A DNA stretch of 27,377 nt from a virus. Each line of letters begins with the position of its first letter. Within the stretch, counting starts at the first letter, position 1. Below are positions 7,989 to 20,933 of the stretch, piece after piece. A program made the translations under genes and the position numbers. Below the pieces are notes generated by a model, which was not told the DNA's origin, made no database searches, and saw nothing but the letters and a program-made list of their open reading frames with translations. Location of the stretch: the IMG/VR virus record IMGVR_UViG_3300000101_000034, positions 11,008 to 38,384 of that record. The stretch is one strand, 5' to 3'.

Positions 7989-9361
7989 TGACAACACCAG
8001 CAAGACCCGGTTCATTTACCGGAGCGACAGATAATGCAGCTAACGGTGGATTGTTCACTGATACATTGATTGATGGTATTCCAGATATAATTGGAGTTGA
8101 TGTTGACCGTGCAGAAACTGCAGCAACAAATGCGGAAGCATCTGCTACAACAGCTACTACACAAGCTACAAGCGCAACTGCATCGGCAGCTACGGCTACT
8201 ACAAAAGCTGCAGCGGCGTCAACAGATGCAGCAAGTGCATTAGCTTCTAAGACTAGTGCAACAGCTAGTCAGGCAGCTGCTACAGCAAGTCAATCAGCAG
8301 CGGCGGCTTCACAGACTGCAGCGGGAACTTCAGCTACTAACGCTGCTGCTTCTCAATCTGCAGCCGCAAGTAGTGCAACGTCAGCTGCTACATCTAATAC
8401 AAGTGCCGCAGCTAACGCTAACTCTGCAATATCTAGTGCATCAGCTGCTAATACATCGGCAGGTACTGCATCAACGCAGGCAACTGCCGCAGGTAATTCT
8501 GCAACTGCAGCTGCAAGTTCTGCTACAACAGCTGGAAACTCTGCTACTGCTGCAGGTAATTCAGCTACAGCAGCTGCTACTTCAGCTACTAATGCAAGTA
8601 ACTCAGCAACTGCTGCCACAAACAACGGCGCAGCACAGGTTACTCTTGCTGCAGCACAGGTTACTCTTGCGACTGCGCAAGCTGCTATAGCTACTACTAA
8701 AGCAAATACAGCTACAACTCAAGCTAATACAGCTACAACGCAAGCTACAGCGGCAGCTTCAAGCGCTACAGATGCACAAGGATCTGAAGATGAAGCAGAA
8801 AACTGGGCTCAAAAGATTAATGGCGAAGCAGTTACAGGGCAAGGCTACTCATCTAAAGCATGGGCAAGAGGCGGAACAGGTATTGATGGTGCATCAGGTG
8901 GCGGATCAGCTAAAGACTGGGCAACAGACACAACTAATACCGCAGATAATACAGAGTACTCAGCTAAAGAATACGCAATAGGTATACAAAGACGAGGGCA
9001 AGCAAACGGTGGTTCAGCTAAAGACTGGGCTAGCTATGTTAGCGGAGTAGCTAAAGTAGATAACGTTTATAAATCTGCACGTGCTTACGCAATAGATGCT
9101 GCAAACTCAGTAGATAATTTTAATGAAAAATATTATGGCAATTACTCAACTGACCTAGCAGCTGTTCAAGCACATGTTGCAGCTGGTAAGACAGTAGAAG
9201 TAGGCGATTTATATTTTAATACAACTAATAGTACGGTTAAATATTGTACAGTAGTACCTGCAGGCGCAGATGCTGATGGTACATGGTTAGTAATTCAAGC
9301 AACAGATACATCTAACTTTGCAACTAAAGGATTTAGTATTGCAATGTCAATAGCTTTATAG
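7988..9361 (+). CDS. Tail fibre/stalk with long Ala/Ser/Thr-rich shaft
   Basis: A 457-residue protein. Residues 1-40 are a compact N-terminal attachment segment containing DTLIDGIPDIIGVDVDRAE. Residues 41-265 are almost only Ala, Ser, Thr, Gln and Asn in helical repeats, matching the phage tail-fibre repeat type (trimeric coiled-coil shaft). Residues 285-370 hold five related motifs (SSKAWA, SAKDWA, SAKEYA, SAKDWA, SARAYA) separated by Gly-rich turns. The end (390-457) is a small beta domain with GDLYFNTTNSTVKY. Being first of the fibre genes after the adaptor, this is the likely stalk attached to the virion; the attached partners are inferred. A long Gln/Leu frame and an antisense Ala frame over 8256-8690 are by-products of the low complexity. 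Confidence 0.8.
   Translation: MTTPARPGSFTGATDNAANGGLFTDTLIDGIPDIIGVDVDRAETAATNAEASATTATTQATSATASAATATTKAAAASTDAASALASKTSATASQAAATASQSAAAASQTAAGTSATNAAASQSAAASSATSAATSNTSAAANANSAISSASAANTSAGTASTQATAAGNSATAAASSATTAGNSATAAGNSATAAATSATNASNSATAATNNGAAQVTLAAAQVTLATAQAAIATTKANTATTQANTATTQATAAASSATDAQGSEDEAENWAQKINGEAVTGQGYSSKAWARGGTGIDGASGGGSAKDWATDTTNTADNTEYSAKEYAIGIQRRGQANGGSAKDWASYVSGVAKVDNVYKSARAYAIDAANSVDNFNEKYYGNYSTDLAAVQAHVAAGKTVEVGDLYFNTTNSTVKYCTVVPAGADADGTWLVIQATDTSNFATKGFSIAMSIAL
8108..8782 (+). repeat. Low-complexity Ala/Ser/Thr codon tract (fibre shaft)
   Basis: Within the stalk gene, codons 41-265 are built mainly of GCN, ACN and TCN/AGN with short recurring words such as AAxSAT and GNSATAA. 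The DNA is a degenerate repeat prone to slippage and recombination, so the number of shaft repeats may differ between related phages. Confidence 0.7.
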
Positions 9362-9369
9362 GAGGTTCT

Positions 9370-9705
9370 ATGGCACAAAATTTTAGAAGATATATTGAGA
9401 GAGCTATAGGAACTTCGGCAACAGATATTCCGGATGGAGCTAATTTCGATTCATATGATACAATAGTAGGTATTAACTTAGCTAATATTGTAGCAACACA
9501 AGTAAACGTTTCTGTTTATATAGCAAATGGTGGTGCAAATTACTACCTTATTAAAGACGCACCTATACCTGCAGGCTCAGCTTTGCAAGTATTAGATGGT
9601 GGTGCAAAGTTTGTTGTACAATCAGGTGATAGATTATGGGTAGTATCAGATACAGCAAGTTCAATCGACGTTGTTGTTTCAGCAGTCGATGATATAAGTA
9701 CTTAG
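9370..9705 (+). CDS. Small beta-rich virion protein (111 aa)
   Basis: A 111-residue beta-rich protein; the ribosome site AGGAGG overlaps the stop of the stalk gene. Features are an N-terminal helix (NFRRYIERAIG), then strands including YDTIVGINLANIVATQVNVSVYI, YYLIKDAPIPAGSALQVLDG and SGDRLWVVSDTASSIDVVVSAVD. The last block, where an Ig-like or jelly-roll domain would need GDRL-VVSD, is familiar from marine phage structural proteins. It probably forms a small sandwich that binds between stalk and tips or decorates the particle. I do not know a named function. No export signal. Confidence 0.75.
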   Translation: MAQNFRRYIERAIGTSATDIPDGANFDSYDTIVGINLANIVATQVNVSVYIANGGANYYLIKDAPIPAGSALQVLDGGAKFVVQSGDRLWVVSDTASSIDVVVSAVDDIST

Positions 9706-9719
9706 TAGGAGGGTATAAT

Positions 9720-11072
9720 ATGGGTTACGTAGGTAACAAAGCAGATTCTAATTATTCTTCTATTGATAAACAAATTATAACAGGTAACGGAGGAACTGGC
9801 TATACGCTCAGTCACTCTGTTGCTAACGCTAACGAGATTGAAGTATTTGTAAATAATGTAAGACAAGATCCAGGAGTAGCGTATACAGTTAACAATGCTG
9901 CACTGACAATGACAGGCGCAGTAGCTAACACAGATAGCTTTTATGTAGTCTTTATAGGTAAAGCAGTTCAAACTAAAGTACCAGCAGATGGATCTGTGGG
10001 TACAACTAAGATTGCTAATGCAGCTGTCAGTACAACTAAGATTGCTGATGATGCTGTAACAGAAATAAAAACATCTTTTATTGATAGTTCTACTGGTGCA
10101 CTTAACCTTCCAACAGGAACTACAGCTCAAAGACCCGGTTCCCCTGCTACAGGTTCTCAAAGATTTAACACTACAACTGTCAAAGCAGAAATATACAACG
10201 GTACAGAGTGGGCTAGCCTTAATGACTTTTCTCCATATTCTATTGGTTGGTTAGCTGTTGCTGGTGGGGGTGCTGGAGGTGGTACCTCCCAATACGGAGG
10301 CGATGGTGGAGGTGGAGGAGCTGGAGGATTTCGTACTTCTGCTGGAACTTCTGGCGGTGGAGCAAGTGCTGAAAGTGCAATAGATCTTACTAGTTCCAAA
10401 ACTTTTACTATAACAATAGGAGCTGGAGGAGCAGCTACATCGGCAGCTACTTCCCGTGGTGGGAGTGGCTCTAATACATCAATATCCGCCTCAGGATTAA
10501 CTACGATAACATGTATCGGTGGCGGTGGCGGTGGAACACGAAATACAGGTGTGCAAAATGGTCTCGATGGTGGATCAGGCGGTGGTAACGGTCAAAGAGA
10601 TGGAACTCTTGCTACTTCATCGGGAACATCAGGGCAAGGTTTTGGTGGTGGTCAATCGTCTGATGCCGCAGGTGCAAAAGGTGGTGGCGGAGGCGGTGGA
10701 GCTGGAGCAGTCGGTGCGACATCACCAAATAATAACGTTGGGGCTAACGGTGGTGTTGGAGTAGCTTCAACAATTACAGGCTCATCTGTGTACTATGCAG
10801 GTGGCGGAGGCGGAGCTGGAACTTCTGGTGGTACTGGAGGAAATGGAGGAGGCGGTGTTGGGACTAATAGTTCAACTGCTGGAGCTGGGTCTGCTAACAC
10901 TGGTGGCGGTGGAGGCGGCGGTGGAACTGCTGGAGCAGGAGGTACAGGAGTTGTAATATTTAGTATTCCAACGGCTAATTATTCTGGATCTGTAACTGGA
11001 TCACCTACTGTAACAACTTCTGGAAGCAACACGATTATTAAATTTACTGGGTCAGGAACATATATATCATGA
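9720..11072 (+). CDS. Tail fibre/adhesin with Gly-rich domain
   Basis: A 450-residue protein in three parts. Residues 1-85 form a beta domain (MGYVGNKADS, SLHSVANANEIEV-type strands, NNVRQDPGVAYTV) also seen in the 13747 gene product. Residues 86-170 hold VPADGSVGTTKIANAAV repeats and the NLPTGTTAQRPGSPATGSQ to YNGTEWASL module common in phage fibres. Residues 181-409 are more than half Gly in runs of two to eight. Such Gly-rich tips can pack as polyglycine II helices, as known for gp38-type adhesins of some T-even-like phages; whether this one does is unknown. The end (410-450) is a beta segment. Its stop overlaps the next start as ATGA. Confidence 0.82.
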   Translation: MGYVGNKADSNYSSIDKQIITGNGGTGYTLSHSVANANEIEVFVNNVRQDPGVAYTVNNAALTMTGAVANTDSFYVVFIGKAVQTKVPADGSVGTTKIANAAVSTTKIADDAVTEIKTSFIDSSTGALNLPTGTTAQRPGSPATGSQRFNTTTVKAEIYNGTEWASLNDFSPYSIGWLAVAGGGAGGGTSQYGGDGGGGGAGGFRTSAGTSGGGASAESAIDLTSSKTFTITIGAGGAATSAATSRGGSGSNTSISASGLTTITCIGGGGGGTRNTGVQNGLDGGSGGGNGQRDGTLATSSGTSGQGFGGGQSSDAAGAKGGGGGGGAGAVGATSPNNNVGANGGVGVASTITGSSVYYAGGGGGAGTSGGTGGNGGGGVGTNSSTAGAGSANTGGGGGGGGTAGAGGTGVVIFSIPTANYSGSVTGSPTVTTSGSNTIIKFTGSGTYIS

Positions 11073-11384: not shown

Positions 11385-12458
11385 ATGGCATTAACTAAAA
11401 TAGGTAAAGAAGGAATTACAGGCATATCCAATGCTAGTAATGCCACTGCGATTACAATTACGTCAGATGAAAATGTAGGTATTGGAACAGGAAGTCCAAG
11501 TGGAAAACTTACTATTGAAGGTACTCAAAACAGTCTTGATAGTCAGTTAAAAGTTACAGCTTCTGGTCAAGTGTCTCAGTACATGGGTGGGAGCAGTGCT
11601 GTTGGACTAGCTCTGGGCCATGACCACGGGAGTTTACCAATAGTTTTTAAAACTGGCGTAAACTCTGGAACAGGTGTTACAGGTTCGGGTACAGAACGTA
11701 TGCGTATTGATGGAACAGGCAACGTAGGAATTGGACTTACAAGTCCTCAAGAATTACTACATTTAAAAGATGGCGATATTGCTGTGGGTAATGGTACAGC
11801 AAGTAATAACGCAGTTATAGGGAAAATTGGGTTTAGTACTGATTCATCAAACTCACGCTTTATTGGTATAGAGTCTTTTAGGGGTAGTGATGCCGCTAAT
11901 GCTGATTTAAGATTTCATACTTATGGTGGTGATGGAAATAACGGTGAACGTATGCGTATTGACACAGCAGGCAACGTAGGAATTGGAACTGCAAGTCCTG
12001 ACTGTATGCTCCATCTCAGCGGCGGTAACGAAGAAGCAAAAATTAAGTTTCAGGTTGGAACTGCTAATGCCGATAAGTTTAAAATTTATGCCTCTACAGC
12101 AGGTAGATTATATGTAAATTCTGACAATGGTAATACAGGTGTCTATCTTACCCACAATGGAACATCATGGACAGGTAATTCAGACGAGACTTTAAAAGAT
12201 AATATAACCTCTCTTGGCACTGTAGGGGACAAACTTAAAAATTATAGAACTTCTTATTTTACTTGGAAGGCTGATACCGAAACACCACCCAAAAGGAATA
12301 TTGGTTTTATTGCTCAAGATTGGGAAACTGATTTTCCAGAAGTAGTGACAAAAAAGGAAGGTGAAACTTTAGGTATGCAATACACAGAAACCATACCTAT
12401 ACTTTTAAAATACATCCAAGAGCTTGAAGCTCGCATCACATCATTGGAGGCAGGATAA
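11385..12458 (+). CDS. Tail fibre/spike with C-terminal S74 self-cleaving chaperone
   Basis: The start at 11385 (GGAGG at 11374-11378) is chosen over an in-frame ATG at 11328, because 11328 lies inside the previous gene. The product is 357 residues. Residues 1-35 are a leader (AITITSDENVGIGT). Two ERMRIDxxGNVGIG repeats follow (residues 104-117 and 188-201). The region 266-357 is an intramolecular chaperone of the endosialidase/S74 class: Ser266-Asp267 and Lys271 (SDETLK) match the Ser-Lys pair that cuts before Ser after trimer folding. NIGFIAQDWE and a final coiled coil (ELEARITSLEAG) follow. The chaperone would be released to leave a stable trimeric spike of about 265 residues. Confidence 0.85.
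   Translation: MALTKIGKEGITGISNASNATAITITSDENVGIGTGSPSGKLTIEGTQNSLDSQLKVTASGQVSQYMGGSSAVGLALGHDHGSLPIVFKTGVNSGTGVTGSGTERMRIDGTGNVGIGLTSPQELLHLKDGDIAVGNGTASNNAVIGKIGFSTDSSNSRFIGIESFRGSDAANADLRFHTYGGDGNNGERMRIDTAGNVGIGTASPDCMLHLSGGNEEAKIKFQVGTANADKFKIYASTAGRLYVNSDNGNTGVYLTHNGTSWTGNSDETLKDNITSLGTVGDKLKNYRTSYFTWKADTETPPKRNIGFIAQDWETDFPEVVTKKEGETLGMQYTETIPILLKYIQELEARITSLEAG
11694..11999 (+). repeat. Imperfect direct repeat in fibre gene
   Basis: GAACGTATGCGTATTGA followed by a GGCAACGTAGGAATTGGA block occurs at 11694-11747 and again at 11946-11999, 252 bases (84 codons) apart. A partial third copy is at about 11475. The repeats encode ERMRID-GNVGIG-SP units and are nearly identical in DNA, so recent duplication or conversion, or strong selection, is likely. 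Confidence 0.75.
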
Positions 12459-13558
12459 TGGCGATAAGCGAAATCAATGATAAGAGCTTAGCAGCATCTG
12501 CTGTTACTGCTACTAAGTTAGCAACATCAGCTGTTGATCTTACATCTAATAAAGTTACAGGTATTTTACCTGTAGCTAATACAGTTGCGAACTTGAGCCC
12601 AGGTAATAACTTAATAATTAATGGTGCAATGCAGGTGGCGCAGAGAGGAACATCAGCTACTGGGATAGGTGCATCAGATAACAATTTTCCTTGTGTTGAT
12701 AGAATGAAAGTTAGGTCAGAACTATCAGCAGGTCGTGCAACTGTTTCTCAAGTAGCAGATGGTCCTAGTGGCTTTACTAAGTGTTTAAAGTTTGCTTGTA
12801 CTACAACAGACACCTCTATTGCGGCAGGCGAAACTTTCTTTTTAACACTTCTCATTGAGGGCCAAGATTTACAGCAATTAAAAAAAGGCACCTCTGATGC
12901 TGAATCAGTTACTTTATCTTTTTATGTAAAAGGTAATGCAAGTGCTACCTATACTTTGGAAATGAAAGATCAAGATAACGGTAGAATTAATACACAAACA
13001 TTTGCAGTCACAACATCATGGAATAAAATATCTTTAACTTTTATACCAGACACAACTGGTGCTTTTGATGACGATAATCTTGCAAGTCTACAAGTAAATT
13101 TGTGGCTTCATGCTGGTTCTACTTATACAGGTGGAACATTTGCTAGTAATACTTGGGCATCAGAAGTCCAAGCAAATAGGGTTAGTTCAAGTTCAACATC
13201 TTTCTTGGACAGCACAAACAGAACATTCTTCATAACTGGAGTACAACTAGAAGTCGGCACAGTAGCCACACCATTTAATCACCGTTCATATGGGCAAGAG
13301 TTGGCTTTGTGTCAGAGGTATTATTACCAGCCAACATCCCGTTTTTATCCGGGGGTAGATAATGCACCCGGAGCTGGTCGTAACTATGTTATTTTCCCAG
13401 TTACCATGAGATCTGCTCCCTCTGTTACTCAGGCAAGTATAAGTGCAGGAACCCTAGGAACAATATGGACGGGAATAGACGTACACAACTATGAATTTAG
13501 TGCGGCCAGACCGGGAATTGGACTAGTCACACCCTATAAATTTGATGCGGAGTTATAA
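12458..13558 (+). CDS. Tail fibre with carbohydrate-binding-like sandwich domain
   Basis: A 366-residue protein with a TAATG junction to the previous gene. Residues 1-45 are a leader with DKSLAASAVTATKLAT. Residues 50-66 hold NLIINGAMQVAQRGTS, the common opening of fibre tips in marine phages and prophages. A beta sandwich follows (about 85-275) with strand pairs such as VTLSFYVKGNASATYTLEM, closing with FFITGVQLEVGTVATPF and NHRSYGQELALCQRYYY (256-290). This layout resembles galactose-binding-like/CBM folds and would bind surface sugars; ligand unknown. The last 75 residues form an extra, more variable tip. A receptor-binding role is inferred. Confidence 0.82.
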   Translation: MAISEINDKSLAASAVTATKLATSAVDLTSNKVTGILPVANTVANLSPGNNLIINGAMQVAQRGTSATGIGASDNNFPCVDRMKVRSELSAGRATVSQVADGPSGFTKCLKFACTTTDTSIAAGETFFLTLLIEGQDLQQLKKGTSDAESVTLSFYVKGNASATYTLEMKDQDNGRINTQTFAVTTSWNKISLTFIPDTTGAFDDDNLASLQVNLWLHAGSTYTGGTFASNTWASEVQANRVSSSSTSFLDSTNRTFFITGVQLEVGTVATPFNHRSYGQELALCQRYYYQPTSRFYPGVDNAPGAGRNYVIFPVTMRSAPSVTQASISAGTLGTIWTGIDVHNYEFSAARPGIGLVTPYKFDAEL

Positions 13559-13560
13559 TT

Positions 13561-13743
13561 ATGGATAATATGATAATAAATTCAGCAAAATACACACTAG
13601 GTGCAGAAGGAAATAACTCTGCTATTAATGCAACCATAGACGGACAAGAGATGTCCGTACCAATGGACCCTGCCAACAGGCACTACGCAGCTATCCTTGA
13701 ATGGGTGGCAGATGGAAATACAATCACAGCAGCAGGAGGATAG
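13561..13743 (+). CDS. Small fibre-partner protein (60 aa)
   Basis: A 60-residue protein starting two bases after the stop of the sugar-binding-like fibre gene. It has IINSAKYTLGAEGNNSAINATIDGQ (in two parts) and VPMDPANRHYAAILEWVADGN. I recognise the pattern (I-A-Y-L-x-x-E-G-N-N-S-A-I-N-A-T-I-x-G, then M-V-P-x-D-x-x-N-R-H-Y-A-I-x-E-W-V) from small genes beside fibre genes in marine phages, where it is uncharacterised. Likely an assembly partner or a minor tip piece. Ribosome site weak; likely coupled. Confidence 0.75.
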   Translation: MDNMIINSAKYTLGAEGNNSAINATIDGQEMSVPMDPANRHYAAILEWVADGNTITAAGG

Positions 13744-13746
13744 GAT

Positions 13747-14220
13747 ATGCCCTATGTAGGCAACCAGCTTGTTGCTGGAGAATTTATAAAGCTAGACTCT
13801 ATAACGGCGTCAGCTACAGCGACCTATGCATTAACAAGAAGCTCAGCAGCATTTAAACCCGCTACTGCAGCTCAGTTAATCGTATCGCTAAACGGAGTAA
13901 CACAAGAACCTGATGACGCGTATAGTGTTAGTGGAAGTAATATAATATTTTCACAGGCCCTTACATCATCAGATGTTATTGATTATATAGTTGCTCTAGG
14001 AGAAATCGGTAACAGTGTAGTTCCAAATGATGGATCTATTACTACTTCAAAACTTTCAAGTACTATTAGCCGTGGAGGCGCAGCAAATATCAGAGTTAAT
14101 CCAAGCAGTTTAACTACTAATACTACAATAGCTAGTGGAGAGAATGCACTAGTAGCTGGACCGTTCACAATTGGATCTAACATAACGTTGACAGTCAACG
14201 GTACATTTACGGTGGTATAG
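13747..14220 (+). CDS. Fibre-like protein with shared YVGN leader (157 aa)
   Basis: A 157-residue protein with a GGAGGATAGGA ribosome site. Residues 1-85 (MPYVGNQLVAGEFIKLDSI, then LIVSLNGVTQEPDDAYSVSG) align by eye with the N-terminal domain of the Gly-rich fibre: YVGN, then a strand with V-LNGV-Q-P-DAY-V, then VPNDGSITTSKL. Residues 100-157 are a short beta stretch (SLTTNTTIASGENALVAGPFTIG) common at fibre ends. It is therefore a fibre made of the shared attachment domain and a minimal tip. It may connect other fibres or be a reduced copy. Confidence 0.75.
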   Translation: MPYVGNQLVAGEFIKLDSITASATATYALTRSSAAFKPATAAQLIVSLNGVTQEPDDAYSVSGSNIIFSQALTSSDVIDYIVALGEIGNSVVPNDGSITTSKLSSTISRGGAANIRVNPSSLTTNTTIASGENALVAGPFTIGSNITLTVNGTFTVV

Positions 14221-14221
14221 T

Positions 14222-15007
14222 ATGAGTCAGATAAATACAGATAAAATAGCTTCCAATTCTGGAGGCACAACAGCATTAACAATTGCTGATAATGGTGGAG
14301 TAACAGCTAGTGGAACAGTAACAGCTACTTCGTATATTGGAAGTGGTGCTAGTCTTACTAGTCTCCCAGCAGCTAACTTAACTGGGACTGTAGCAACAGC
14401 AAGACTTGGTTCAGGAACGGCTGGTACTGGAAACTTTTTAAGAGGTGATGGTTCGTGGCAAACTGCTGGTTCAACAAGTGCTAGTGACTTGACTTCTGGT
14501 ACTCTGCCTACTGCTAGGCTGCCAGCAGGTAGTGTGTTGCAAGTTGTATCAACAACAACTACTAGTCAAAACAGCTTTACAAATACAAATGTTGATGCAT
14601 ACGCAGATATTGGTTTAAGTGTAAATATAACGCCTAAATCTTCTTCAAGCTATTTTTTAATTTCTTGTACTATTGGGATAGGAACTGTCGTAAGTTCGGA
14701 TAGCTGGGGTGGCGTACTATTTTTAAATAGCACTAAAATAGGTAATGGAGCAAATTCTGGCAATAGAAAAGGTGCTTTCCTTAAAGGAATAAAATATGGC
14801 CCTGATCCTAATCACAGTTTTGGTGCTATGAATAGTTTTTTATACAAAACCTCACTAACTCAGGGTACGCAAGTAACCTTTAAAGTGGGTGGGGTTGCTC
14901 AGGGAGGCACTGGATACATAAATAGGTCGTCAAACTTTACAAATACAGCATCCATATACGGTGCAACAGGCTCTTCAACAATATCAGTTATGGAGGTAGC
15001 AGTATAA
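14222..15007 (+). CDS. Tail fibre with TTALTIADNGG leader (261 aa)
   Basis: A 261-residue protein. Residues 1-35 are the shared leader (INTDKIASNSGGTTALTIAD). Residues 35-110 contain the fibre linker LPAANLTGTVATARLGSGTA and FLRGDGSWQ, and a second SDLTSGTLPTARLPAGS copy. Residues 110-261 are a globular beta-rich tip with alternating strands (YFLISCTIGIGTVV, GGVLFLNSTKIGNG). The linker type is known from many phage and prophage fibres. It is paired with the 97-residue gene that follows through a TAATG overlap. A receptor-binding tip is the likely role; the receptor cannot be read from sequence. Confidence 0.78.
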   Translation: MSQINTDKIASNSGGTTALTIADNGGVTASGTVTATSYIGSGASLTSLPAANLTGTVATARLGSGTAGTGNFLRGDGSWQTAGSTSASDLTSGTLPTARLPAGSVLQVVSTTTTSQNSFTNTNVDAYADIGLSVNITPKSSSSYFLISCTIGIGTVVSSDSWGGVLFLNSTKIGNGANSGNRKGAFLKGIKYGPDPNHSFGAMNSFLYKTSLTQGTQVTFKVGGVAQGGTGYINRSSNFTNTASIYGATGSSTISVMEVAV

Positions 15008-15300
15008 TGTTTAAGCATCAAGCTATATATAACACACATGAGAGTGTAATAAGTATTGTTAATGACATACCTAAAGATATTAACGGTTATGTTGTGACTT
15101 TAAATCAATCTTTAGTAGACACAGAAGAAGCTGTACTACAAGCAGCATACGATGCCTTAGAATATTCAAGCCTTCGCAAAGCTAAGTACGACTTACTCAA
15201 TCAAGATGAGATGCGGTATGACGATATAAAAAATTCAACTACAACTTGGATAGATGCCATTGATGCAATCAAAGCAGCTCACCCAAAACCAGCGGCATAG
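15007..15300 (+). CDS. Small helical fibre-partner protein (97 aa)
   Basis: A 97-residue protein overlapping the previous fibre stop by one base. The first 35 residues are beta-like (MFKHQAIYNTHESVISIVND). The rest is helical, with KYDLLNQDEMRYDDIKN and a helix ending in DAIDAIKAAHPKPAA. The R-KYDLL-x-QDEM-YDDI-x-NST-TWIDAID pattern resembles the C-terminal part of tail-fibre assembly proteins (helper chaperones), in which a helical end contacts the fibre. That makes a chaperone role more likely here than for the other small partners, yet it remains inference. Confidence 0.72.
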   Translation: MFKHQAIYNTHESVISIVNDIPKDINGYVVTLNQSLVDTEEAVLQAAYDALEYSSLRKAKYDLLNQDEMRYDDIKNSTTTWIDAIDAIKAAHPKPAA

Positions 15301-15309
15301 GAGGATATC

Positions 15310-16077
15310 ATGACAGGTATAATAAAAACAGATAAGCTCCAAAGCTCTGCGGGTAATGATGCATTAACAGTTGCTAGTAATGGAGTGGTTACTGCAGCTG
15401 GTAACGTGGCTATAAATGGTGCTTCTGCCACTCACCCACTTTCGGTAAATGGTCAAATTAAAAGCACGGGAGCTAATGGTGAAACTTTGCAACTACAAAC
15501 AAGTAGTCAATATAGTGGGATTTCATTTATAGGTTCTGATGGAACTAGAGATGCTATTATCGACTATGACCATACCAATGGTGCGTTAGGTTTAAAAGCT
15601 CACACTAGCTCACACTATATAAACTTTATGACAGGTGGGTACAGTGAAAGATTTAGAATTACTGACAATGGAGTAACCTTCAACGGAGACACAGCCGCAG
15701 CCAATGCTCTCGATGATTACGAAGAGGGGACTTGGACACCTACAGATGCATCTGGTGCTGGTATGACACTAATAGTTTGGCAATCTATTTATACAAAGAT
15801 TGGTCGTAAAGTATTCGTTGAAATTGGTTTTAAACTACCTTCAAATTCAAGCACGGCAGATCTTAAAATTGGTGGACTACCCTATGTGTCAATAGGGGGT
15901 GGAGACAATACAGGTGGTTTTGCACTATCGGGAACAAATTCAGGAAGATCAGATTTATGGCTTGTTGATAGAGGTCTATCATCATTTGGTGCTGGTACCT
16001 ACAATAATGTTTCTGCTAAAAATAATAACTATTCAAATAACCAAATAAAACTTTGCGGCAGTTATACTACAGCATAA
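15310..16077 (+). CDS. Tail fibre with NALDDYEEGTWTPT module (255 aa)
   Basis: A 255-residue fibre. Residues 1-32 repeat the leader (GIIKTDKLQSSAGNDALTVA). A middle part has beta strands (ISFIGSDGTRDAIIDYDH, then SERFRITDNGVTFNGDTAA). At 132-145 is NALDDYEEGTWTPT, a module seen in many marine phage fibres just ahead of the globular tip. The tip (145-255) is beta-rich with a conserved-looking IYTKIGRKVFVEIGFKL segment. Ends in SYTTA. The last 30 residues are Asn/Ser rich. Ribosome site TAGGAGGATATC is strong. Likely one adhesin of the set. Confidence 0.8.
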   Translation: MTGIIKTDKLQSSAGNDALTVASNGVVTAAGNVAINGASATHPLSVNGQIKSTGANGETLQLQTSSQYSGISFIGSDGTRDAIIDYDHTNGALGLKAHTSSHYINFMTGGYSERFRITDNGVTFNGDTAAANALDDYEEGTWTPTDASGAGMTLIVWQSIYTKIGRKVFVEIGFKLPSNSSTADLKIGGLPYVSIGGGDNTGGFALSGTNSGRSDLWLVDRGLSSFGAGTYNNVSAKNNNYSNNQIKLCGSYTTA

Positions 16078-16081
16078 ATTA

Positions 16082-16101
16082 TTACTAGTGGATTCTAGTA
16101 A
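16082..16101 (+). promoter_or_regulatory. Perfect 7-bp hairpin between fibre genes
   Basis: TTACTAG (16082-16088) pairs with CTAGTAA (16095-16101) around TGGATT, in the 41-base gap after the 255-residue fibre gene. No T-run follows, so termination is unlikely. It stands directly before the AGGAGAAA ribosome site of the next gene and may be an RNA processing or stabilising element, or a recombination scar. Confidence 0.5.
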
Positions 16102-16118
16102 CAGACAGGAGAAATAAA

Positions 16119-16364
16119 ATGGCACTAACAGAAAGTACAGTAGAAGATAAGATTGAAATTGTAGGCGAGTATAAACACGTTCAAGTAAGAACTGCTACAA
16201 TTATAAAGAAAGACGGAGTAGAACTTACTCGTAGTTTTTCAAGACACGTTATAGCGCCGAACGCTAACATAAGTTCAGAGTCAACTGAAGTAAAAGCGAT
16301 ATGTAATGCTGTTCATACAGACGCGGTAAAGACTGCGTATGCTGCATACTTAGCATCACTATAG
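16119..16364 (+). CDS. Small fibre-partner protein (81 aa)
   Basis: An 81-residue protein (MALTESTVEDKIEIVGEYKH...). A strand-rich first half with VQVRTATIIKKDGVELTRSF and RHVIAPNANISSESTEVKAI is followed by a helix (CNAVHTDAVKTAYAAYLASL). Proteins of this type (T-DKIEIV-E-KHVQVRT, then RHV-AP) are abundant in marine phages next to fibre genes and have no known function. It has a good ribosome site and lies between two large fibre genes. Assembly partner or minor virion protein. Confidence 0.78.
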   Translation: MALTESTVEDKIEIVGEYKHVQVRTATIIKKDGVELTRSFSRHVIAPNANISSESTEVKAICNAVHTDAVKTAYAAYLASL

Positions 16365-16376
16365 GAGGATATAATT

Positions 16377-17834
16377 ATGGCAGCAACATTAGGTGTTGAA
16401 ACAATACAACATACAAACGGAACAACAGCGTTAACAGTAGGTAGTACTGGTAATGTAGCTGTATCTGGTGATATAATTAAAACTACTGCGGGTACATCTA
16501 ATTTTGCAGCAGGTGCTAATGCTGGTAACTCAATACAAGCAGGAGCTACTCAAAATACTGTTGTAGGGGATGAAGCTGGTACTGCAATTACGACAGGCGA
16601 CCAAAATACTTTTGTAGGTAACATCGCAGGTGATGCTCTTACAGAAGGAAGTTCTAATGTTGCTCTGGGGTATTTTGCTTTAAGTACTGAAACTCACGGT
16701 TCTAACTCAACAGCAATAGGCAGAGGAGCATTAGCTCGTCAAGTTAATGGAAGTGTAACAAATACATACAACACAGCAGTAGGGGCGCAAGCTGGTGTAA
16801 ATGTAACCACAGGCACAAACAACACCATCATTGGTGCAACAGCAGGTGACGCATTAACTGTAGGTAATTCTAATACAGCAGTTGGACAAAACGCATTAAG
16901 TTTAGATACACAAGGTGATCTAAATACTGCAATAGGAATTGGTGCTTTACAGTCTCAAAACTTTACGAGTAGTACAGATTCTTATAACACAGCAGTCGGT
17001 GGTTTCGCAGGAGGCAGCAATACCACAGGACAAAACAACACTTTTGTGGGGGGTCTTGCTGGCAATAAAAACACTACAGCAAACAACAACACAGCAGTTG
17101 GTTACCATGCTGGAAAAGCAATGACTACAGGAGATACCAACTCTGCTTTTGGAAAAGACGCACTAGTAACTTGTACGACAGGAACAAATAACAGTGCGAT
17201 AGGTTCACGTTCATTGAATGACCTTACCTCTGCAGCTAATAACGCAGCTCTTGGAGATTTAGCTGGTGAAAATATAACTACAGGTTCTAATAACACTACC
17301 ATAGGAGTAGGTTGTAATGCAATTACTACGACAGGTGAAAATGTTACAATGGTTGGTCATCTTTGTAGAGCATCAGGCGCAGCTGTTAGCAACGAAGTTG
17401 TTATAGGCAGTAACGGCATGATAGGTAGAGGCGCAAGCACTGCATTTATTAGTGGTGGTAATGGGCCTGTATATGCAGGTAATAATGCTTCATCTTTTTC
17501 TACTACATCAGATAGACGCATTAAGAAAAACATTGTTGATAATAGTGTTGGCTTAGACGCTATTAATAAAATTCAAGTTAGAAACTTTGAATACAGAACA
17601 CCAGATGAAATAGAAGAGTTATCTTCAGATTGTGCTATTTTTCAAGAAGGCGTACAGGTAGGTGCAATAGCACAAGAAATGCAAAAAGTATTGCCAGAAT
17701 GTGTAACTCAAGAAAGTACAGGTGCATATACTGTTCAACAAGAGCCTATGGTCTGGGCGTTAGTAAATGCGATCAAAGAACTATCAGCAAAGAACGATGC
17801 TCTTGAGGCTCGCATCACAGCGTTGGAAGCTTAG
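16377..17834 (+). CDS. Adhesin with YadA-like repeats and S74 chaperone
   Basis: A 485-residue protein. Residues 1-32 are the shared leader (IQHTNGTTALTVGSTGNVAV). Residues 60-340 are about fifteen copies of a unit of mostly 17 residues, N-T-A-V-G-x-x-A-G-x-x-x-T-T-G-x-N, the signature of YadA/Hia head repeats (left-handed trimeric beta roll). Residues 378-485 are an S74 chaperone: Ser378-Asp379, Lys383 (SDRRIK), then GAIAQEMQKVLPE and a coiled coil LEARITALEA. Self-cutting before Ser378 would leave a trimeric stalk-like adhesin. Its chaperone and last helix resemble those of the 11385 gene. Last gene of the array; the next ATG follows its TAG directly. Confidence 0.88.
   Translation: MAATLGVETIQHTNGTTALTVGSTGNVAVSGDIIKTTAGTSNFAAGANAGNSIQAGATQNTVVGDEAGTAITTGDQNTFVGNIAGDALTEGSSNVALGYFALSTETHGSNSTAIGRGALARQVNGSVTNTYNTAVGAQAGVNVTTGTNNTIIGATAGDALTVGNSNTAVGQNALSLDTQGDLNTAIGIGALQSQNFTSSTDSYNTAVGGFAGGSNTTGQNNTFVGGLAGNKNTTANNNTAVGYHAGKAMTTGDTNSAFGKDALVTCTTGTNNSAIGSRSLNDLTSAANNAALGDLAGENITTGSNNTTIGVGCNAITTTGENVTMVGHLCRASGAAVSNEVVIGSNGMIGRGASTAFISGGNGPVYAGNNASSFSTTSDRRIKKNIVDNSVGLDAINKIQVRNFEYRTPDEIEELSSDCAIFQEGVQVGAIAQEMQKVLPECVTQESTGAYTVQQEPMVWALVNAIKELSAKNDALEARITALEA
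16554..17396 (+). repeat. YadA-like head repeat tract
   Basis: About fifteen degenerate 17-codon units inside the adhesin gene. From codon 221 the units start at intervals of exactly 17 residues (221, 238, 255, 272, 289, 306, 323); earlier ones are spaced by longer insertions. Conserved places are Asn-Thr, the hydrophobic-Gly pair and Thr-Thr-Gly. Confidence 0.8.
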
Positions 17835-18673: not shown

Positions 18674-19354
18674 ATGACACGTAAATTACTTTTCTCAATA
18701 GCATTTGCAGCTTTACTTGCAGGCTTTATGACACCGCTGATGATAACGAAAGCTTGGTCTGCAGATTCTAATACAGTCAGTTCAACTGTTGTAACAGATA
18801 AAGCACCGCCTACAGCTAATGCACCTTCAGTAGTAGTTAATAACTCTGATATATGTAAGTCAGGAGCTGCAGCATCTATACAGACACAGGTACTAGGTAT
18901 AGCTAGTGGTATAACAATCACTGATAAAAATTGTGAAAGACTTAAGCTGTCTAGATCTTTGTATGCTATGGGTATGAAGGTGGCTGCAGTATCGACTCTC
19001 TGTCAAGATCCTAGGGTCTTTGATAGTATGTGGATGTCTGGAACTCCCTGCCCGTTTATGGGTAAGATCGGTGATGAAGCTAAACTTATGTGGCAAAAGA
19101 ACGTAGAGTTTATACCTGAAGAATCTGAGATAAGATTACGTGAAGAGATAGCTATAATTGCTAGAGATGAAGAGGCTATTATAGCAGCTGATAAAATACG
19201 GTTAGATAAAATAGCTGCTGATAAAGAACTTAAGAATAAACATAAAGAAGCTTTAGCGCAATCGCGAGCTCAAGCTAGGGAGTTTCAAGATGCAGATAAG
19301 AAACGTATTTGGGCTAACCCTCTTGGCTTGCTCCTTATGGTCTTACTCCTCTAA
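18674..19354 (+). CDS. Exported four-Cys protein with helical tail
   Basis: A 226-residue protein with a signal peptide (MTRKLLFSIAFAALLAGFMT to AWSA at 30). The mature N-terminal domain carries four Cys (61, 87, 110, 126) in conserved-looking blocks: SVVVNNSDICKSGAAASIQT, ITDKNCERLKLSRSLYAMGM and MWMSGTPCPFMGKIGDEA. These blocks are familiar from secreted proteins of marine phages; function unknown. Residues 150-212 form a highly charged helix likely to be a coiled coil. The C terminus is hydrophobic (WANPLGLLLMVLLL), a possible membrane anchor. Its last 65 bases also encode the start of the next gene in another frame. Confidence 0.75.
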   Translation: MTRKLLFSIAFAALLAGFMTPLMITKAWSADSNTVSSTVVTDKAPPTANAPSVVVNNSDICKSGAAASIQTQVLGIASGITITDKNCERLKLSRSLYAMGMKVAAVSTLCQDPRVFDSMWMSGTPCPFMGKIGDEAKLMWQKNVEFIPEESEIRLREEIAIIARDEEAIIAADKIRLDKIAADKELKNKHKEALAQSRAQAREFQDADKKRIWANPLGLLLMVLLL

Positions 19355-20933
19355 CGCAGCTGAGCCATGTCCATCAGGTACTGTGGGTCTATGTGATCCA
19401 TCTGTATTAGAAACAATTGTAGAAACTATAACTGAGACTTCTCAGAATGATGGGCAAGGTACTTTAACAACAACAGTTACTGTAGTAGACACAACTACGG
19501 TTACAGTTACTAATGCAGACTCAGGTGATATTCTTGATGGTGATAATGGATTTGTGGCTTCTACTAAAGAAGGAGATATGGATTCAGACTGGGGCGGTGA
19601 AGGACCCGCTTCTATGCCGAGTGGCACAGGATGTGGCGCGCTAGGAACAGATAAGTGCGCAACAATAACCGGTAGTGGTAATACAACATCTACAATGGGT
19701 GTGCCTAATATGGGTACAACATTTAAGCAGACTATAGATATATCAGATTTAAATATGAGTAAAGGTGGTAAAACTACATATAGTATTAAAGTAGATAAGC
19801 AAGATGCTAGTGATAGTATATACATGCATATCACAGGTACTAATGGATCTTCAGTAAGCTTTGCAGGAACTGACGTGCTGTCAGCATCTGGCGTTAATTC
19901 AGGTTATGCTGAATATACAGGTGCATTTGACTTTGCAGATAGTCTTACTACAATAATAGTAGAGATAGGTGGTCGAGATATTAACTTAGCGATAGGGCCG
20001 TTATTCGACGACGTTAGTATAAATGTACTATATAATGTAATAAGTACTATTGTATTACAAACAATTACTACTGTTGAGCAATACGTATATAACAATGATG
20101 GAGCTACTGAGACAGAGATAGAGATCGTTAAAGATATATTTGATCATAACGATATAGTAGAACCTACAGATGGTGATATGTATTTTGAACCAATAGAACC
20201 TAATGAAGATATATCTTATGATACTATTGAAACAGAATTAGATATGCCTACATTTGAAGTAGACTTTGAAATGGAATTTGAATTACCAGATTTTGAAATT
20301 GAATTTGATATGCCAGATATAAACGTATCAGATATTGAAATGGAAATGGATTTAGAAGTAATGCCACCTCCAGATATGCCTAAACAACCAGAGCCTGATA
20401 TAGCTCCATCTACTAATGTAGAAAAACCGGAGCCTGAAATGCAGGTAACTGAGGTAAAGCCAGAACCAGAGCCTGAGGTAGAAGCTAAACCAGAGCCAGA
20501 ACCTGAGCCCGTGGATGAGCCTAATAATGATCCGGAACCTGATGTAAAGGAAGAAGTAAAAGAAGAGCCTACGGAAGAAATTAAAGAAATTAAAGAAGAA
20601 CCTAAAGAAATTAAAGTTGTAGATAAAAAAGAAGAGCCTGTTAAAGTTCAGAAGAAAATTGCTAAGCAGAAAGCTGGCAGTAAACTTGTTAAAGATATGG
20701 GCGACGCAAGTAGGTATGATTCAGGTAATCAGTTAAAGACTTTAATTATTATGAATGTTATAGCTGATACTAAAAGCTTCTTTGTATCTAAACAATTTAA
20801 AGAAATAGAAGGTTTTTTCACAAGTGAGGTATTACCAGACAATAGTATACCTGATAACAATGTTGCAGCATACTTATTATATGTTGATGATGGTGGAACT
20901 ATGAGTGATCTAATAGATCTGCAATATAAATAA
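19290..20933 (+). CDS. Large exported protein with Pro/Glu-rich spacer
   Basis: A 547-residue protein starting within the previous gene (AGGGAG at 19277-19282). It has an export leader (MQIRNVFGLTLLACSLWSYS to SNAA at 24; LLAC could also be a lipobox at Cys14). CPSGTVGLCDP follows (27-37), then a Thr-rich stretch, then a beta domain (about 140-250, IDISDLNMSKGGKTTYSIKV, FDDVSINVLYNVIS). Residues 290-360 are acidic strips of D-M-P-x-F-E-x-E-F type. Residues 365-450 are Pro-Glu/Lys-Glu rich, as in TonB spacers that cross the periplasm. The last 80 are a helical domain. Role unknown; could span the envelope or be a virion piece. Confidence 0.7.
   Translation: MQIRNVFGLTLLACSLWSYSSNAAEPCPSGTVGLCDPSVLETIVETITETSQNDGQGTLTTTVTVVDTTTVTVTNADSGDILDGDNGFVASTKEGDMDSDWGGEGPASMPSGTGCGALGTDKCATITGSGNTTSTMGVPNMGTTFKQTIDISDLNMSKGGKTTYSIKVDKQDASDSIYMHITGTNGSSVSFAGTDVLSASGVNSGYAEYTGAFDFADSLTTIIVEIGGRDINLAIGPLFDDVSINVLYNVISTIVLQTITTVEQYVYNNDGATETEIEIVKDIFDHNDIVEPTDGDMYFEPIEPNEDISYDTIETELDMPTFEVDFEMEFELPDFEIEFDMPDINVSDIEMEMDLEVMPPPDMPKQPEPDIAPSTNVEKPEPEMQVTEVKPEPEPEVEAKPEPEPEPVDEPNNDPEPDVKEEVKEEPTEEIKEIKEEPKEIKVVDKKEEPVKVQKKIAKQKAGSKLVKDMGDASRYDSGNQLKTLIIMNVIADTKSFFVSKQFKEIEGFFTSEVLPDNSIPDNNVAAYLLYVDDGGTMSDLIDLQYK

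Follow-up and report, generated by a model that had tools for sequence, protein, structure and literature searches.

Fibre genes that lie side by side in a phage genome, begin alike and end differently raise two questions: whether the common beginning attaches each protein to the virion, and whether it is also the place at which the ends are exchanged. Such genes occur in a stretch of 27,377 nucleotides (the window), part of a 44,152-base record of an uncultured virus, a marine phage. A sequence-only reading of the window had proposed that four fibre proteins, encoded at 11385, 14222, 15310 and 16377, share an N-terminal leader, and that this leader is both a common docking tag for a single socket and a recombination site for swapping tips.

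The fibre region and the leader family

Genes for portal, scaffold and major capsid protein are present in the virus record. Among the phages listed, Roseobacter phage CRP-7 has the capsid protein closest to that of the record (55.5% identity), all others being below 36%. The fibre region extends from ~9.4 to 17.8 kb of the window and holds the same kinds of gene as Puniceispirillum phage HMO-2011 (Table 1). Two of its genes, at 9720–11072 and 13747–14220, have a common N-terminal domain (MxYVGN...NNVRQxPxxAY), a second and longer conserved N-terminus in these arrays, of which HMO-2011 also has two copies. Positions 12458–13743 hold the gene of a MAISEIND...NLIINGAMQVAQRG fibre protein and, behind it, a 60-aa gene; homologues are present in 25 fetched loci, and HMO-2011 has the same pairing. 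A 547-aa protein at 19290–20933, without a PHROG match, contains an extended stretch rich in acidic residues and proline (EPEPEPE...KEEP). Ten fibre-region proteins gave no match to PF03906 (the T7 gp17-type fibre N-terminal domain) at E values up to 1. That the region is the target of a diversity-generating retroelement was rejected, since no match to PF00078 (reverse transcriptase) was found in the 44-kb record, itself possibly incomplete.

Table 1. Features of the fibre region (positions in the window)
Feature	Position	Strand	Remarks
111-residue beta-sandwich virion protein, the socket of the sequence-only reading	9370..9705	+	pLDDT 91
MGYVGN fibre protein	9720..11072	+	N-terminal domain homologous to that of 13747; each gene matched by both HMMs
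S74-ending fibre protein, weak MALT-like start	11385..12458	+	among the four proteins first listed; outside the leader family
MPYVGN fibre protein, candidate anchor	13747..14220	+	directly upstream of slot 1; PHROG tail fibre 1.9e-30
Slot-1 leader, type T1 MSQINTDKIASNSGGTTALTIADNG	14222..14296	+	codons 1–25; HMM iE 2e-5
Slot-1 tip, predicted TNF/C1q-like jelly-roll, lectin-like	14522..15004	+	AlphaFold residues 101–261 mostly high pLDDT
Small companion gene of slot-1 tip, putative fibre chaperone	15007..15300	+	about half of homologues immediately follow a tip of this family
Slot-2 leader MTGIIKTDKLQSSAGNDALTVASNGVVTAA	15310..15399	+	codons 1–30; HMM iE 3e-9
Slot-2 tip (GDTAAANALDDYEEGTWTP type)	15400..16077	+	same tip type in slot 1 of L092
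Small companion gene of slot-2 tip (phrog_6228)	16119..16364	+	co-occurs with LDDYEEG tips
Slot-3 leader, type T2 MAATLGVETIQHTNGTTALTVGSTGNV	16377..16457	+	codons 1–27; HMM iE 8e-11
Slot-3 shaft/tip, beta-roll repeats and C-terminal Peptidase_S74 chaperone domain	16458..17834	+	PF13884 1.4e-11, residues 378–443

All four open reading frames are present in the window, and the three leader strings quoted in support of the original claim are exact. The likeness is real for three of the proteins. Shuffle tests limited to residues 1–45 gave p = 0.0005 for 14222 with 15310, p = 0.001 for 14222 with 16377, and p = 0.0015 for 15310 with 16377. In a profile alignment the similarity likewise holds for these three, with the values given in Table 1. 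Their middle and end parts differ, as had been said. The motif itself needed redrawing: the conserved block begins earlier than was proposed, at (I/L)(K/G)(V/T)(D/E)x(I/L)Q, and ends between Gly25 and about residue 30.

The three window leaders, Lederberg_70 and HMO-2011 gp31 served as seeds of the profile, which was then run in iterations against every fetched locus. Many of these loci were collected by similarity to the leader, the MxYVG protein or the 111-residue protein, and pairs of loci are not independent; fetching by leader similarity selects neither for tip divergence nor for gene order. At iE < 0.01 the profile matched 235 times in 23,972 reading frames and was N-terminal in 230 (98%). 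Three of the remaining five matches fall in two proteins (one in the overlapping loci L093 and L232, one in L224) in which the second half of the leader is tandemly duplicated; in the other two, a leader and tip are joined to the downstream end of an MxYVG protein. Among relatives the consensus is MxSILxVDxIQxTxGTxAxTIDSSGxV, ~25–27 residues in length. Nine leaders searched against Pfam gave no match; in PHROGs four families matched weakly, the best (1.2e-4) being the tail fibre family phrog_11355. A sequence search of the PDB with the leader profile returned nothing better than a pectate lyase at E = 0.05, which is chance level.

A block this short, and this rich in T, A, G, V and S, could in principle arise by convergence of low-complexity beta-rich sequence. 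For 14222, 15310 and 16377 this is refuted: same-composition shuffles rarely match the scores of the three, and profile matches are N-terminal almost without exception, with internal shaft repeats scoring far below N-terminal leaders. As an account of the leaders we consider convergence highly improbable.

Convergence does account for the fourth protein. The start at 11385 is an internal ATG of a reading frame listed from 11328, and its first 45 residues gave p = 0.24 against 14222, 0.45 against 15310 and 0.024 against 16377. The leader HMM found no match in it. Moreover, the protein has three internal fibre-shaft repeats of the GNVGIGTxSP type (residues 30, 112 and 196), and the part that resembles the leader (ENVGIGTGSPSGKL, residue 30) is the first of these. 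On these grounds 11385 was rejected as a member of the family, and the proposed set of four reduces to three. Its sequence does no more than hint at a distinct, MALT-type start (iE 1.4). The protein ends in a Peptidase_S74 domain (PF13884, 6.4e-11). Its gene occupies a further swapped slot, between the MGYVGN and MAISEIND genes: window positions 11385–12458 and positions 8176–8658 of L092, a close relative, both have MALT-type starts, with an S74 fibre in the window and a TNF-like tip in L092.

Leader types, their order and candidate partners

Leaders come in three types, T1 (SKLYVDEIASKTG), T2 (SIIGVETLQHTNGTTA) and T3 (SILKVDSIQ), and the usual order of the array is MxYVG-T1-T2-T3-MALT. Directly adjacent pairs in relatives number 39 for MxYVG followed by T1, 44 for T1–T2, 61 for T2–T3 and 40 for T3–MALT; the reverse, T3 before T2, was seen four times. 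The window and L092 share a variant order: T1, a T3-like leader, then T2. At the DNA level each window leader is 78–93% identical to its same-slot counterpart in L092, as against 53–66% to its neighbors in the same genome (baseline for random pairs 50%, SD 4%). Leaders are slot-specific, and their order is mostly fixed.

This bears directly on the docking tag. Had all leaders been one tag for a common socket made by the 111-residue protein, the presence of the 111-residue gene upstream in most of these arrays would be explained; but the types are specific to their slots and mostly fixed in order, and of the 26 loci in which the 111-residue gene is followed by at least 8 kb of sequence, 12 had no detected leader. 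The fold points the same way. A structure search with the model of the 111-residue protein ranked first the trimeric cement protein of Helicobacter phage KHP40 (Z 10.6, background 7–8). A protein whose predicted fold is most like those of capsid cement and turret proteins is a weak candidate for a socket. The single-socket proposal is thus not borne out, and we think it improbable. (The 111-residue protein is found in at least 575 loci in IMG/VR; PHROGs calls its family unknown.)

A better and more consistent candidate for the partner of the leader is the MxYVG protein. Its gene is the one directly upstream of T1 in the 39 cases counted above, and natural fusions place an MPYIG domain in the same reading frame as a leader and tip (L157, ORF at 11834; L148, ORF at 12038). 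Judged from sequence, slot-specific and ordered leaders are better suited to separate addresses, or to stacking in order, than to a single socket. Along these lines the leaders might be address codes that place up to four different exchangeable adhesins, in a set order, in a heteromeric stack borne by the MxYVG fibre, the ~25-residue tags being DNA exchange points as well; in this full form we regard the proposal as rather unlikely.

Alternatively the leader may dock nothing: it would be only the first turn of the shaft of a trimeric fibre and, as a beta-repeat or cap that sets the register of the fold, would be conserved for trimer nucleation. Its second half does obey the grammar of shaft repeats, the L092 slot-1 leader runs directly into GNVGIGTASPSQKV, and the unit duplicated in tandem inside the L093 and L224 proteins is HTNGTTAATI. 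The leader also lacks a confident monomer fold, having a pLDDT of 43–48 in the model of 14222, in which the tip is confident. The first half of the leader (SILKVDxIQ, SIIGVETLQHTNG) is, however, rare inside proteins, and the slot-specific, ordered types also speak against a mere shaft cap. We hold this reading to be possible, with appreciable weight, but not the favored one.

Tips and the mosaic boundary at the leader end

What follows the leaders is diverse. Tips of 151 non-redundant leader proteins fall into 25 families, the two largest of which are found behind all leader types; they include C1q domains (recognized by Pfam), the TNF/C1q-like domain of 14222, S74-ended shafts and others. Leaders identical at 23 or more of 25 positions form 308 pairs, and in 189 of them the tips belong to different families. 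Companion genes tend to go with the type of tip, not with the slot. The slot-1 tip gave its best fold matches to the C-terminal domain of Pgp3 (Z 14.2) and the lectins PLTL (13.2) and BC2L-C (12.7), with C1q domains at 9–10: its predicted fold is a TNF-like jelly-roll, like that of the sugar-binding lectins PLTL and BC2L-C.

The comparison with L092 locates the change. Identity between the two genomes is ~89–91% both across the head genes and in the surroundings of the MPYVGN gene. In slot 1, 11–15 bases of each 15-base block are identical up to codon 25, and 2–6 from codon 26. In slot 2 only codons 1–30 match (84 of 90 bases) and the flanks are unrelated on both sides, while in slot 3 identity is high to about +44 (~codon 15) and has faded by codon 30. 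The leader end is a mosaic boundary, and that part of the original proposal which saw in the leader a boundary for tip swapping is upheld. A piece of the slot-2 tip gene of the window, together with gene 16119, matches the slot-1 tip gene of L092 and its companion: the DNA of 16119 is 80% identical to that of the gene behind the same tip in L092.

The pattern extends to other relatives. In a set of 32 loci with the run MxYVG-T1-T2-T3 there are 85 pairs, not independent of each other, in which the MxYVG DNA is at least 90% identical. Median amino-acid identity of the tips in these pairs is 0.23–0.25, the same as in distant pairs, so that tips stand at background where the neighboring gene is nearly unchanged; this, and the occurrence of the same tip families behind all leader types, supports tip swapping. 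The leaders of the same pairs have amino-acid identities of 0.88 (T2), 0.52 (T1) and 0.56 (T3). The low values for T1 and T3 indicate that part of the leader is exchanged too, and since leader DNA in close pairs is less identical than the neighboring MxYVG gene, leaders are not specially protected DNA. Position profiles of T2 fall from a DNA identity of 0.65–0.8 within the leader to ~0.3 past codon 30, and upstream of the start, more than 15 bases out, they stand at 0.26–0.29. Several pairs of loci have leaders that are 95–98% identical as isolated islands of 75–110 bases, and in pairs with leader DNA 95–97% identical the sequence is mostly unrelated both 5′ and 3′. One pair (L195 and L217) is 100% identical over 2.5 kb of DNA that lies further downstream, yet its tips, which lie between leader islands, do not match.

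Recombination between leaders of one genome is an unlikely source of this mosaic. Within the window genome the longest exact stretch common to leaders is 8–9 nt, and these short matches, with the 53–66% identity noted above, make leaders poor sites for intragenomic recombination. The sequence comparisons make it likely that exchange took place between phages, at matching slots.

We therefore favor, as the probable explanation, an adhesin array in which N-terminal leader connectors seat interchangeable tips that are exchanged between phages. Each gene would consist of a conserved connector of 25–30 residues and an interchangeable tip, often followed by a small cognate companion gene; the second half of the connector (ALTIxxxGxV) can be read as the first beta-repeat of the fibre shaft. 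Tips, with their companion gene, would pass between phages by recombination that uses leader DNA and the start region as short homology, or that joins nearby, and selection would retain those junctions that keep the leader intact. On the tail, each adhesin trimer would be seated by its leader protein, and the most likely site is the MxYVG fibre protein or a place beside it.

Relation to known systems and significance

That a conserved leader marks the point of tip exchange is known in outline from the tail fibres of other phages. In T-even phages, Tetart et al. (1998) reportedly described swapping of the distal tail fibre adhesin, with conserved short motifs marking the points at which specificity segments are exchanged. 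Those motifs lie within one adhesin, whereas the constant block of the present array stands at the N-terminus and recurs in several genes that follow an order.

A closer parallel is the tail-spike complex of the Ackermannviridae, in which several receptor-binding proteins per phage (TSP1–4) have conserved N-termini (XD/TD domains) and exchangeable receptor-binding parts; their conserved 5′ ends permit exchange through homologous recombination, as has been shown experimentally (PMC11414711). There too conserved N-termini have position-specific roles and C-termini are variable, and the leader proteins share this division into conserved N-termini and exchangeable C-terminal parts. The N-terminal parts of the tail spikes, however, are full folded domains with known partners, whereas the leader has ~25 residues and a partner that is only a candidate; unlike the tail spikes, the adhesins here are small (median 173 aa). 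Gp10-like XD domains were not among the Pfam and PHROG matches of the fibre proteins, obtained with general models rather than XD-specific ones.

Closer to the window, the HMO-2011 array (gp28–gp42) has a homologue of the 111-aa gene, two MPYIG genes and several small fibre proteins with leader-like starts, but its order is different (T3-like before T2) and it has more small fibre genes. In pelagiphage C1q proteins the N-terminal end is reported to recruit more metavirome reads than the C1q domain (PMC3909814); in that account of marine-phage C1q proteins in metaviromic islands no mention was found of the leader family, slot types, order or mixing of tips. A limited literature search found no description of the family, its slot types or its order. 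Conserved N-termini with exchangeable tips are thus known; this leader family, its slot types and their order appear to be new.

The short leader profile, absent from Pfam, provides a sequence handle for the receptor-binding genes of abundant uncultured marine phages. The exchange that it reveals is both extreme and orderly: close relatives often differ in three consecutive tips, with leader types and order kept. If leaders are addresses, host range would be a combinatorial property readable from sequence, and if the address-code stack holds true, each marine phage would carry a combinatorial set of receptor specificities.
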